A DNA stretch of 64,000 nucleotides, from NCBI RefSeq assembly GCF_030408635.1, contig NZ_CP047198.1, positions 1,612,001 through 1,676,000 on the forward strand. Direction: 5' to 3'. Shown piece by piece: positions 39,860 through 44,175 of the stretch. How positions within the stretch are numbered: position 1 is the first letter of the stretch; each line of letters begins with the position of its first letter. The stretch comes from Corynebacterium coyleae (GTDB lineage: Bacteria > Actinomycetota > Actinomycetes > Mycobacteriales > Mycobacteriaceae). The notes below the pieces were generated by a model. The model was not told the origin of the DNA. It worked only from the letters and a program-made list of their open reading frames with translations, and did not search any database. The translations under genes were made by a program, and so were the position numbers.

Positions 39860-40678
39860 TTAATTCCGCGATGGACAGGCTGGGTGCTGTCCCGCGGCCG
39901 CCAAAGAGCGGGTTGCCTCGTACACATCGCCAGACGCCATCACAGCCTCCGCTGCCAACACGGCATCCGCACCACACGCGGCGGCGTCCATCAGGTCACG
40001 CGGAGTGGTCACACCACCCAGGCTGATCTTGATCACTTCGGTGGGAAGCCCCGGCGCGATATCCGCAAAGGCGTTGCGGTTGAGGTCGTTGGTGTCAAAG
40101 GTCCAGGAGTTCACCGCGATCACACTCACGCCGGCCTTAAGGGCCCGATCCGCCTCCGCTGGCGTGCGCACCTCGGCCACACCGACCATGCCCAGCGATT
40201 CCACTCGGTCCAGCAGTGCCTCCAGGCGCGGCTGTTCGAGGATGCCTACCTGCAGCGGGAGCATGTCGGCGCCGTAGCAGCGGGCCTCGTGGATCTGGTA
40301 CGGGTCGACGATGACATCGCGACACACCATCGGCAGGCTTACGGCTGCGCGGGCGTTGGCCAGATCTGCCAGGGAGCCGTCGAAACGCAGCCGCTCTGTC
40401 TGGCAAGCGATGAGGTGGGCGCCACCGCGCTCGATGTCTTGGGCAACCGACTCGATCGAGCGTCTGCCTACCGCGGTTGGGCCAAAAACTGGCGAGTTGC
40501 GTTTGATCTCCACGATGACCCCGCAGCCGTGGCGCAAAAGTGCTGCTTTAGCATCGCGGGTTGGGGGCATGTCGCGCGAGCGGGCCTTGATTTCCTGGAA
40601 CGGCACGACCGCTTCGCGTTTTTCGACATCACGGAGCACACCAGCGACAACGTTTGATACTGCGCTCGGTGCCGACAT
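39860..40678 (-). CDS. trpC: Indole-3-glycerol-phosphate synthase homologue lacking catalytic residues
   Basis: The 272-residue TIM-barrel protein is clearly IGPS-related: VIVEIKRNSPVFG, DVIVDPYQIHEARCYGAD, DLNRNAFADIAPGLP. However, compared with E. coli or Sulfolobus TrpC, the general-acid Lys (RKDF/CKDF block) is Arg120 in CRDV. The Arg of NNRDL/NSRDL is Trp192 in NSWTF. The catalytic Glu-Ser of SESGI is Leu220-Gly221 in SLGGV. Glu57, Lys59, Glu169 and Asn190 remain. I infer a paralogue without normal IGPS activity. The frame is intact and sits in the TIGR02234-trpC-lgt-pyk string. The symbol reflects homology only. Confidence 0.8.
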   Translation of the reverse strand: MSAPSAVSNVVAGVLRDVEKREAVVPFQEIKARSRDMPPTRDAKAALLRHGCGVIVEIKRNSPVFGPTAVGRRSIESVAQDIERGGAHLIACQTERLRFDGSLADLANARAAVSLPMVCRDVIVDPYQIHEARCYGADMLPLQVGILEQPRLEALLDRVESLGMVGVAEVRTPAEADRALKAGVSVIAVNSWTFDTNDLNRNAFADIAPGLPTEVIKISLGGVTTPRDLMDAAACGADAVLAAEAVMASGDVYEATRSLAAAGQHPACPSRN

Positions 40679-40717: not shown

Positions 40718-41383
40718 TTAGCGGTTGCCCTGCGTAGGACGAAAATCCTCGTCACCAGTTTCGGTCGGGTCGATATCCGCGTCGAGCGCATCCCACATCA
40801 CGCGTCCGGAATCCGGCTCCTCTTTCAGGTCGTGACGGATGGTTTCTTTGCGCACAGCTTCCTTCTCGTATTTGTGTTGCTTCGGCGCATCCTCGCCAGG
40901 CTTGACGACGAGCATCGCACCGCCAATCACCCCCAGCACACATCCCACGATCGTGAGTACTGGGCCTACCACAGCAACGTCGGCGGCGGTGATCTCCGCC
41001 CAGTTCGCAATAGCAGCGGAGGACGTATCCGTGGCTGCCTGTTCCGCCCCTGCCGTCAAGATGGCGTGGATACGCTCATGGTCAGCACCACGCGCCAGAA
41101 GCGCTGCTGCTGGGATGACAGCAGCAGCGGCGGCGAGCGCGCAAATTCCGCCGATAACACGACGACCGACCTTGCGCAACGCAAACGCGGCAATCGCACC
41201 GGCGAGCAGCAGCACCGCCACTGCGGTGATCTCGGTGGACCACTCCGCGCCGGTGATGGTTGCTACACCTTCGCCGGAGAGGTCGTCGTTGTACTTCGCG
41301 GTCACCCAGTCCATGCGGGAAAAGCCCCACATCACCGCACCCGCCACACCGAGCAGCAGTGCACCGGTTTTGTTCTTCTTCAT
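40718..41383 (-). CDS. TIGR02234 family (Trp-region-associated) membrane protein
   Basis: The 221-residue protein has four hydrophobic segments (about residues 7-24, 52-70, 77-97 and 136-160) and an acidic cytoplasmic tail ending DEDFRPTQGNR. The start MKKNKTGALLLGVAGAVMWG and the GADWSTEITA-like segment match the actinobacterial family found next to trpC and lgt. Its function is unknown. It is 17 bp downstream of the IMPase gene. Confidence 0.8.
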   Translation of the reverse strand: MKKNKTGALLLGVAGAVMWGFSRMDWVTAKYNDDLSGEGVATITGAEWSTEITAVAVLLLAGAIAAFALRKVGRRVIGGICALAAAAAVIPAAALLARGADHERIHAILTAGAEQAATDTSSAAIANWAEITAADVAVVGPVLTIVGCVLGVIGGAMLVVKPGEDAPKQHKYEKEAVRKETIRHDLKEEPDSGRVMWDALDADIDPTETGDEDFRPTQGNR

Positions 41384-41399: not shown

Positions 41400-42188
41400 C
41401 TACTTTGCAACCATCTGGATCGCATCGAGCACAGTACGATGCGCACGCGGTGTACCGATAACCACACCGGCGGTGGTCGGAGTCCATTCCGAACCATCAA
41501 ACGCGCTTGCGTTCGCCCCTGCACTGCGCGCCAACAACACACCAGCTGCGTTATCCCAGATGTGCGGGGAAAAACTGACCGCAGCCTGGTAGATCCCCTG
41601 CGCGACGAAGGCCAGGTCAACGCCGACCGATCCGCTGATGCGCGGCCGCAGGTGCGAATCCGTGAGTGCGCCTGCCAAGTCGAGACGGAACGATGCTGGG
41701 TATCGCTGCCTATCCGCCGAGGCCAACGAGCCAATCCCGACCTGCTCCGCAGCGGAAGTCAGCGCACCAACCGGTGGCAAGGCGTTGCCGTTGAGGTGCA
41801 CGGGCTCGCCATCGACCGCGGTGAGGCGCATGTTCAGCAGCGGCGCATCGGTAATCGCTGCGACCGGTTTTCCACCAAGCAGCAGCGTGCACAGGATGGC
41901 GCAGTTCGGATTGCCGGACGAGTAGTTCGACGTACCGTCGATCGGGTCAACAACCCAGCACGCCTCCGGATCAAACGACCCGCCTTGTTCCTCGCCGTAC
42001 ACCGCAATGCCAGTCGTGTCCGTCAGACGCTTGCGCAACAGCTTCTCAATGATCAGATCAGCCTCTGTGGCAAAGTCGCCGGCCCCCTTGCGCAGTGCAG
42101 GAGCAGCCCCCACTTTGTCGACGAATACCTCACGCGCCTCATCAACCGCGCACAATGCAGCATCAAGCAGCTCCGCCGGCTTATGCAT
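41400..42188 (-). CDS. impA: Inositol-monophosphatase family phosphatase (ImpA/HisN-like)
   Basis: The 262-residue product has the IMPase metal sites intact: GEEQGG (Glu-Glu), WVVDPIDGTSNYSSG (Asp-Pro-Ile-Asp-Gly-Thr), and the late HIWDNAAGVLLARSAGA with WD. Substrates may be inositol-1-phosphate, histidinol phosphate or other small phosphomonoesters. In C. glutamicum the equivalent impA lies between hisA and hisF, which are missing here. GGAGGTG precedes the ATG, which overlaps the hisH-like stop by 8 bp. Confidence 0.88.
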   Translation of the reverse strand: MHKPAELLDAALCAVDEAREVFVDKVGAAPALRKGAGDFATEADLIIEKLLRKRLTDTTGIAVYGEEQGGSFDPEACWVVDPIDGTSNYSSGNPNCAILCTLLLGGKPVAAITDAPLLNMRLTAVDGEPVHLNGNALPPVGALTSAAEQVGIGSLASADRQRYPASFRLDLAGALTDSHLRPRISGSVGVDLAFVAQGIYQAAVSFSPHIWDNAAGVLLARSAGANASAFDGSEWTPTTAGVVIGTPRAHRTVLDAIQMVAK

Positions 42189-42834
42189 GAGACACCTCCG
42201 GCTGCAGCTGCTGCACCCAGTTGCCCAGCACGCTCACACCAACCTCACCGGACATGGCTGGGTCGAACGCCATCGCCCACAATGGCCCATTTTCTACAGC
42301 GGCAAGGATGCGCTCGCCGTTGATGTCTGCCCAAGACAGTTTCGGGTAGGCGATGAAGTCATCCTCTGCCAACGGGAACGACTTCACGGCTTGTGGCGCG
42401 TCGAAGAACACGTCTCCAACAATTCCGGCCAGCAGCTTCGAACCATCTGCCGCCACGACGGGGTACTCCCCCGCTTCAAATGCTGCCTCCACAACTTGGC
42501 CCGGCCACTCCCCAAGCCCTGGTGTGGTGCGGCTGCCGGTCACGGCGTCGTCGAAAAGCACGTGCATTCCAGTGCCGACCGCAAGCAGTGCCCTACCCCC
42601 TGCCAGACGCTGGCCTACGATGCGATCCCCTTTGATGCGCTTGATCGCCGCAGCAGCGTCTACAAACGATGCCCCACCAGGCAAGACAAGACCGCTTGCC
42701 TGCACAGCCTTGTCGGGGTCAGTGGTGGCAAAAGCATCAGCACCTGCATTCGCCAAAGCACTGACAAGGCTGGTGGTCTCACTGCCGAAGTAATCAAGTA
42801 CCGCGACTGTCGGGCTTGCCGGGGTGTTCGTCAT
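42181..42834 (-). CDS. hisH: HisH-like protein with the glutaminase triad lost
   Basis: The 217-residue protein aligns to the glutaminase subunit of imidazole-glycerol-phosphate synthase: VAVLDYFGSE, GLVLPGGASF, RIVGQRLAGGRALL, GLGEWPG, AAVENGPLW and GVSVLGNW. The nucleophile Cys of the GICVGMQ elbow is Gly87 (AVGTGMH). The His and Glu of FHPEKSG are Asp191 and Ala193 (FDPAMSG). The HMGWN block is not recognisable. It therefore cannot hydrolyse glutamine by the known mechanism. HisF, its partner, is not encoded nearby. The frame is intact and embedded in the operon, so a non-enzymatic or new role is likely. The symbol marks homology only. Confidence 0.85.
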   Translation of the reverse strand: MTNTPASPTVAVLDYFGSETTSLVSALANAGADAFATTDPDKAVQASGLVLPGGASFVDAAAAIKRIKGDRIVGQRLAGGRALLAVGTGMHVLFDDAVTGSRTTPGLGEWPGQVVEAAFEAGEYPVVAADGSKLLAGIVGDVFFDAPQAVKSFPLAEDDFIAYPKLSWADINGERILAAVENGPLWAMAFDPAMSGEVGVSVLGNWVQQLQPEVSHA

Positions 42835-42861
42835 GGTTGCGTAGTGTATCCGCTCCCCCGA

Positions 42862-44175
42862 TTACTGGTTCTTCGGCTGCTTCTTATTCTTCGACGGATA
42901 ACGACGCGGCGCCTGCACAGCCTTCAAACGAGCCGACAGATTGTTAACTTCCACCACACGGTGGCGGCCCAACTGACGGTCAAGCAACGTGACAATCAGC
43001 CCAATCGCGATGACACCGGATGCGATGCCGAACATCGGCGCGAACGCCATCGTGGCAATGAGCATGCCGTAGAAGGTAGAACCCAGGCCCGTCCCGCCGT
43101 CGAAAGCAATGTTCCAGATAGCAGAAGCTTCCGAGGTCTTCGAGCGCGGCAGGCGGTAGAACATCATGGTCAGTGCCTCGTTTTGCACCGCGCCGAAGCC
43201 TGCGCCGTAACACAGGGCGGCCAGCAGCATGGTCCAAACCGGTAGCTCAAGCGCCAAGATGGCTGCCATGAGCAACACGCCGAGTGCACAAAGGACCTGG
43301 CATGGGATGAGCACGGTGCCAGGCTGCCCACGACGGTCCATGATCTTGCCTGCCGTGTAGCGCGAGATCATCGACGCAAAGTTCATCACGCCGAGCATTA
43401 CGCCGCCCATCGCGGCACCCGTGGCCGGGTCGAGATCACGCATGGAGACCGGCAAGAAGTTCGTGATCGCACCGTAAGCAGTGGTCACAAACATCAACGC
43501 GAGTGCCGGCACGAGCACCAGATGCCACATGGGCACATGGACCATGTTTGTGGTCTCTGGCTCGGGATCCGGTGGTGGAATAGCAGGGATCGCCGCACAG
43601 GCAATGAGCGAGATGCCACCGATCGATGCGGCGATAATATACACGGCGTCGTACCCAATCCTGTCCACCAGGGCTAAGCCCGATGGCAGCGCAATCATCT
43701 GAGCAAGGCCGACAACACCACCGAAAATTCCCGTGGCACTGCCGAGCAGGCGCAGCGGTACCAGCTCCGCGATAATCGCCGCTTCAGCCACGGACAATGC
43801 ACCGAAGCCGATGCCACGAATCGCACTAACCGTCAGCAGCGGCGCTGCATCCATGCCGATGATGTACCCCAACGCCGGGATACCCAGAAGCATTGAGGCC
43901 ACTGCCATGATGATGCTGTAGCCGAACCTCCGCAGAGCCCACGGCGTACAAACCTGCGTGAGCACTGTTGCCAGCATGAACACACCAGTGGACAGCCCGG
44001 CAAGGGATGCAGACTGTCCGGCATCGATGACGGCTGTGGGCACTACCGGCAACAGAAGCGACCAGGCGGCGAAGGCGGATGCAACGGCGACGAGCACCGG
44101 GATCAAACCACGGGCCCGCCACACATTGGTTAGCGAATCAACCTCGTCGCGGGTAAGGGGCCGAACTCCGAACAT
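42862..44175 (-). CDS. Major facilitator superfamily transporter
   Basis: The 437-residue protein has 12 predicted membrane segments in two halves, with the MFS loop RRFGYSIIMAVASML and a matching second-half loop KIMDRRGQPGTVLIP. A basic C-terminal tail ends RYPSKNKKQPKNQ. The substrate is unknown. In C. glutamicum an MFS gene holds the same position in the his cluster, so an amino acid or peptide substrate is possible, but this is inference. It is 27 bp upstream of the hisH-like gene and 1 bp after the small membrane gene. Confidence 0.87.
   Translation of the reverse strand: MFGVRPLTRDEVDSLTNVWRARGLIPVLVAVASAFAAWSLLLPVVPTAVIDAGQSASLAGLSTGVFMLATVLTQVCTPWALRRFGYSIIMAVASMLLGIPALGYIIGMDAAPLLTVSAIRGIGFGALSVAEAAIIAELVPLRLLGSATGIFGGVVGLAQMIALPSGLALVDRIGYDAVYIIAASIGGISLIACAAIPAIPPPDPEPETTNMVHVPMWHLVLVPALALMFVTTAYGAITNFLPVSMRDLDPATGAAMGGVMLGVMNFASMISRYTAGKIMDRRGQPGTVLIPCQVLCALGVLLMAAILALELPVWTMLLAALCYGAGFGAVQNEALTMMFYRLPRSKTSEASAIWNIAFDGGTGLGSTFYGMLIATMAFAPMFGIASGVIAIGLIVTLLDRQLGRHRVVEVNNLSARLKAVQAPRRYPSKNKKQPKNQ

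Follow-up and report, generated by a model that had tools for sequence, protein, structure and literature searches.

A HisH homologue without its catalytic triad has outlived HisF in a clade of Corynebacterium and is maintained under purifying selection

Introduction

In textbooks, ammonia channelling and allostery are illustrated by the enzyme pair HisH and HisF. The window analysed here, a 64,000-nucleotide stretch of a Corynebacterium genome, contains an open reading frame for a HisH homologue without the Cys-His-Glu triad (hereafter HisH*, gene hisH*), raising the question of why a glutaminase subunit devoid of its catalytic residues should persist as a gene. The initial annotation of this DNA offered two answers, a pseudoenzyme with another role or a gene in early decay. 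Here, we weigh these answers against the genome around hisH*, its relatives across the genus, the selection acting on it and the distribution of constraint along the protein.

Results

Loss of the catalytic residues within an intact frame

The initial annotation had read the Cys, His and Glu of the triad as replaced by Gly87, Asp191 and Ala193, which is exact, the three codons having been located in the DNA (Table 1). The frame is also intact, as had been stated, being a 217-residue open reading frame without an internal stop. Since HisH* contains no cysteine, and histidines at positions 91 and 216 only, no alternative triad is possible in this protein; a search for another intact triad on re-alignment found none, and a second triad is thereby ruled out.

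The NCBIfam profile TIGR01855 aligns with residues 10–208 of HisH* (E 5.4e-17, 62.2 bits) without reaching its curated cut-off of 105.4, and a Pfam scan of the protein gave no match at E 0.001. Structure prediction with the window protein and 13 homologues was confident (pLDDT 89.4, pTM 0.88).

Table 1 Features of the hisH* locus, with positions in the window.
Feature	Position	Strand	Basis or remark
hisH* (HisH homologue without Cys-His-Glu, 217 aa)	42181..42834	-	Open reading frame and TIGR01855 profile
Gly87 codon GGC, slot of the nucleophile Cys	42574..42576	-	Alignment with 53 canonical HisH
Asp191 codon GAC, slot of the catalytic His	42262..42264	-	Same alignment with 53 canonical HisH
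Ala193 codon GCC, slot of the catalytic Glu	42256..42258	-	Same alignment with 53 canonical HisH
Retained block 1, residues 70–83 (RxxGQRLAGxR)	42586..42627	-	92% of canonical-invariant positions kept in 12 species
Retained block 2, residues 106–117 (GxGEWPGxV)	42484..42519	-	96% of canonical-invariant positions kept in 12 species
Retained block 3, residues 178–190 (AAVENGPLWA)	42265..42303	-	87% of canonical-invariant positions kept in 12 species
-10-like TACACT, likely leaderless promoter	42843..42848	-	9–14 nt before the hisH* ATG
MFS transporter gene, upstream of hisH*	42862..44175	-	Order conserved in relatives
impA (inositol monophosphatase family)	41400..42188	-	8-nt overlap with hisH*, where relatives have hisA
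Trp-associated membrane protein gene	40718..41383	-	C. riegelii has hisF between this gene and impA; 16 nt remain here
trpC	39860..40678	-	Profile matches, synteny

HisF and HisA are missing from the genome

The genome to which the window belongs is complete (2.51 Mb, one contig), and searches of the whole of it found no second HisH and no match to PF00977, the profile of HisA and HisF, for which the control was positive in 14 of 14 cases. A HisF or second HisH elsewhere in this genome is thus ruled out. HisB was not found in the complete genome either (genome-wide searches for HisB and HisD covered six genomes at most). HisH* has outlived HisF, its known partner; that HisF and HisA are both missing had not been visible to the initial annotation. 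Despite the missing HisA, HisF and HisB, an intact hisD is retained near C1:1.038 Mb (L074:8998-10296(+)), far from the old his locus; HisD is absent from the relatives G016 and G122.

HisF-less genomes carry glycine in place of the nucleophile

A profile built from seven Cys-less HisH sequences was run on 242 Corynebacterium genomes and matched in 238. Twelve of these stand well apart (E 4e-106 to 3e-82), the next match being at 2e-71. This group includes C. mucifaciens, C. wankanglinii, C. haemomassiliense and the isolates Marseille-P4321, HMSC05H05 and MSK008; with Cys-less HisH in 12 species, an error in a single genome is ruled out. The presence of HisF was tested in 236 of the 242 genomes (151 + 5 + 80), and HisF was missing from 17, a genome being scored as HisF-less where the PF00977 match was absent, weak and partial, or HisA-like only. 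Five of the 12 gave no such match and seven a weak one (E 1.8e-4 to 8.2e-4), spanning roughly 50 to 95 model positions in the five for which positions are listed; that of G002, G186 and G187 exceeds the family threshold when adjacent pieces are summed with it. We read the five with listed positions as other TIM barrels.

An open HisH-like frame is present in 14 of the 17 HisF-less genomes, namely the 12 together with G037 and G144. The other three (G047, G084, G217) have no recognisable HisH: a HisH profile applied to all frames of at least 50 residues at the old locus gave nothing better than E 0.22, and a diverged copy there was rejected. Glycine occupies the Cys position in all 14, whereas the triad is kept in 53 of 53 HisF-bearing genomes inspected; we give no weight as evidence to the corresponding Fisher p of 1e-14, which ignores shared ancestry. 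The check proposed with the annotation, whether the same substitutions recur in other corynebacteria, shows recurrence for Cys to Gly and not for the whole triad, which is fully replaced only in the window (Gly-Asp-Ala), its nearest relative G016 (Gly-Asn-Ala) and G037 (Gly-Leu-His). His and Glu are retained, with Cys alone lost, in 10 of the 14, and G144 keeps Glu. Seven of the 14 proteins are free of cysteine, two of these (G187, G151) being read from a start chosen too late. G144 (L078:8849-9565(-)) has an apparently intact HisA beside its Cys-less HisH, and that HisH carries an Ala/Gly-rich insert before the remaining HTGWN motif.

The 14 Cys-less genes are not independent events, because the 12 form one clade, both in the HisH tree (support 100/100), where they nest among canonical HisH, and with four flanking proteins (100/99). 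G037 and G144 are placed elsewhere in the genus. Constraining all 14 to one clade was rejected on the concatenated flanking proteins (p-AU 1.75e-45) and not on the short HisH alignment alone (p-AU 0.066). As the single clade is rejected on the flanking proteins, we conclude that the replacement of Cys by Gly happened at least twice in the genus. HisF-bearing G111 falls beside G144 (94/89), a placement under which, though it is not decisive, G037 and G144 may represent two separate events.

hisH* remains in the old operon position

In C. riegelii (L032), the gene order is hisD-hisC-hisB-MFS-hisH-hisA-impA-hisF, followed by the genes for the Trp-associated membrane protein, trpC, lgt and pyk. 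Twelve genus members show the order MFS-hisH*-impA-membrane protein-trpC-lgt-pyk, with neither hisA nor hisF in between. In all 12, the spacing between the hisH* stop and the impA start (starts picked by script) ranges from -8 to +13 nt, and a TANANT hexamer occupies the -10-like position in 11 of the 12 clade members, G016 having TAAGCT. Similar boxes precede hisH in canonical relatives too, and for hisHA-impA-hisFI of C. glutamicum a leaderless transcript starting from hisH is reported in an excerpt of PMC3896937. The old leaderless promoter of hisH probably still drives hisH*, which would be the first cistron of hisH*-impA.

The same loci yielded several further observations. trpC is kept in 12 of 12 contexts despite the loss of HisA; the HisA of C. 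riegelii scores as bifunctional HisA/TrpF. Between G002 and G038 (L038, L040), impA is nearly identical (NG86 dS 0.04), while dS for hisH*, the MFS gene and trpC of this pair is 0.25–0.39, suggesting recent recombination over impA. Diverged open frames weakly similar to HisA were found just before impA in the HisF-less genomes G084 (L139:5584-6126(+), tblastn E 8e-4), G217 (L140:8055-8636(-), E 9e-9) and G037 (L077:8661-9224(-), E 1e-14), of which that of G037 alone has a Pfam His_biosynth match (23.3 bits); relics may thus be left behind by HisA as well as by HisH.

HisH* is under purifying selection

The dN/dS comparison proposed with the initial annotation gave values far below 1: 0.110–0.208 by NG86 in seven pairs within the 12-species clade (G037 and G144 lying outside it). 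Values of dS above about 1, as for G070–G078 and G000–G016, are near saturation. All 95% bootstrap intervals fall within 0.041–0.298, and no bootstrap value exceeds 0.341. The same pairs gave 0.05–0.19 for impA and 0.05–0.09 for trpC, and three pairs of canonical HisH gave 0.073, 0.136 and 0.240. Selection on HisH* is thus weaker than on trpC, and in most pairs than on impA, yet it is clearly purifying. Between G000 and G016, HisH* is 66% identical, compared with 77–93% for six flanking proteins. Truncated sequences, namely Pyk in several rows and MFS of G078, were left out of the pairwise values. In a neutral simulation of the hisH frame, run without indels, the frame was still open in 5.3% of cases at 0.2 substitutions per site, in 0.7% at 0.5 and in 0 of 2000 at 2.

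The pseudoenzyme proposed in the initial annotation is therefore supported, in that the catalytic residues are lost from an otherwise intact homologue whose Cys-less family is open and under purifying selection in 12 species of one clade. Its other suggestion, early decay, is disfavoured, because the Cys change is common to a clade whose members mostly share 45–50% identity with the window protein, and because every frame is still open where neutral evolution could be expected to have broken it.

Constraint is concentrated in three blocks

We measured retention along HisH* as the share, kept in the 12, of positions that are invariant in six canonical relatives. Beside the three well-retained blocks in Table 1, retention was 39% for residues 2–24, 52% for 25–53, 23% for 54–69, 28% for 84–105, 28% for 118–157, 56% for 158–177 and 67% for 191–211. 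Of 95 positions conserved to at least 95% in 53 canonical HisH, 39 are lost, meaning that the residue is kept by three or fewer of the 12. Many of these lie in DYGAGN, the PGVG oxyanion strand, the nucleophile elbow, LPHMGWN, FYFVHSY and the Lys of HPEKSG, and several of the lost motifs would face HisF, as in T. maritima HisH. A role of HisH* as a glutamine sensor is unlikely, given that most members also have changes in the oxyanion strand and in the Gln that follows the elbow.

Seven residues (R76, L77, G79, R81, W110, N182 and G183) are shared by all 14 Cys-less proteins and by all 29 sequences taken from other genera of the family; among the 53 canonical sequences, each occurs in 51 to 53. 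Four distinct solved HisH proteins, presumably from Thermus, yeast, Vibrio and Thermotoga, were aligned with them: all have other residues at W110 and N182, only the Vibrio protein shares R76, and three have Arg or Lys opposite R81. The kept residues are therefore more than generic HisH residues.

Discussion

Our analysis indicates that selection maintains HisH* in a 12-species clade as a folded protein that has no catalytic role and acts independently of HisF, a reading to which we assign a probability of roughly 0.9. In favour of our overall explanation we count the loss of HisA, HisF and HisB, the glycine at the Cys position in 14 of 14 HisF-less genomes with a HisH frame against cysteine in 53 of 53 HisF-bearing ones inspected, the low dN/dS, and the retention of 87–96% in the three blocks against 23–39% in residues 2–24, 54–69, 84–105 and 118–157. 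HisH* would no longer make ammonia, and it has no HisF left to serve. The nucleophile of the elbow sits in a strained turn, and as Gly relieves this strain, Cys to Gly would be the expected change once catalysis was unneeded. How such a protein acts is less certain. The likeliest mechanism, at about even odds, is a scaffolding or regulatory role exerted by binding at the three blocks and inherited from a second role of HisH in the family. Our most far-reaching proposal is tentative, falling somewhat short of even odds. It holds that the ordinary HisH of Corynebacterium and its family would have, beside its glutaminase job, a HisF-independent, non-catalytic function seated in RxxGQRLAGxR, GEWPGxV and VENGPL, which survived the loss of HisF in at least two lineages, HisH* being that function stripped of the enzyme. 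This second role would not be universal, as three of the 17 HisF-less genomes have no recognisable HisH. Counted against our explanation are the more relaxed evolution of HisH* relative to trpC and mostly to impA, and the possibility that the three blocks are a requirement of folding.

The alternative that we take most seriously, while holding it unlikely, is that hisH* is kept as the first, leaderless cistron, whose translation lets ribosomes ending it start impA by coupling, the protein being a by-product. The close spacing of stop and start in all 12 and the promoter box in 11 agree with this, as do the diverged HisA-like frame before impA in G084 and G217, which have no HisH, and the degenerate HisA frame kept in G037. 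Coupling alone does not require constraint over the whole protein, seen here as a dN/dS of 0.11–0.21, nor a pattern in which retention is highest in internal blocks and among the lowest at the N-terminus; moreover, in G144 it is the intact hisA, not hisH*, that precedes impA. Obligate partnership with ImpA, considered on the basis of co-loss, is unsupported, as impA is also kept in G047, G084 and G217. It is similarly doubtful, and if anything slightly more so, that selection acts on folding only, an expressed relic having to avoid misfolding and the blocks being the structural core of HisH in the family. The conservation of the blocks throughout the family's HisH and the confident structure prediction are in keeping with it, but the fold as such does not need W110 or N182, since the four solved HisH proteins have neither; of the 95 conserved positions, 39 have been lost, and it leaves unexplained why hisH* did not disappear altogether, as HisH did in G047, G084 and G217.

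Slow neutral decay of a pseudogene is very improbable. HisH* does evolve faster than its neighbours, as seen between G000 and G016, but frames are open in 14 of 14 genomes, dN/dS stays far below 1 in seven pairs and simulated neutral frames are seldom open. Least probable of all, in our view, is that HisH* has kept glutamine hydrolysis or binding by relying on a different nucleophile or partner: although 10 of the 14 keep the His and Glu of the triad, all have Gly at the nucleophile, neither the window protein nor seven of the 14 (counting the two read from late starts) contain any cysteine, and the oxyanion strand and the Gln of the elbow are altered in most of the 12.

HisH outliving HisF, a nucleophile lost in separate lineages and the fixation of distinct residues together point to a second function of a supposedly single-purpose subunit, if we read the retained blocks correctly, and the fixed residue set tells which residues to test. 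An annotation as HisH does not imply histidine synthesis. In a literature search of limited coverage, we found no description of a HisH that lacks either HisF or the cysteine. Pseudoenzymes of biosynthetic families are already known; the one here, derived from a class I glutamine amidotransferase, stands out for having outlived its partner.

Compared with canonical HisH, a class I glutamine amidotransferase, HisH* is homologous over its full length, occupies the same operon position before impA and the same promoter position, and shares the three conserved blocks; its descent is further evident from the nesting of the 12-species clade among canonical sequences. It differs in having neither Cys-His-Glu nor the LPHMGWN motif, in scoring below the cut-off of TIGR01855 and in the absence of HisF from its genome. 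The plant protein PDX1.2 acts on active paralogues, whereas the genome of HisH* encodes neither a HisH paralogue nor HisF. What the two share, going by excerpts of PMC6829848, is that PDX1.2 too is a catalytically dead, retained member of a biosynthetic enzyme family. A closer comparison is the HisH of C. glutamicum, from the same genus and locus, on which the relevant excerpts of PMC3896937 report that deletion of hisH causes no histidine auxotrophy (cited there as unpublished), that the gene complements an E. coli hisH mutant, and that the authors favour ammonia use by HisF as the explanation of its dispensability. There, in contrast to the genome of hisH*, HisF is present, and hisH is reported to complement; the likeness lies in a gene kept though unneeded for histidine under the reported conditions. 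This dispensability fits a second HisH role without proving it; such a function, if real, would help to explain why C. glutamicum keeps hisH, and it turns the reported dispensability into a testable question.
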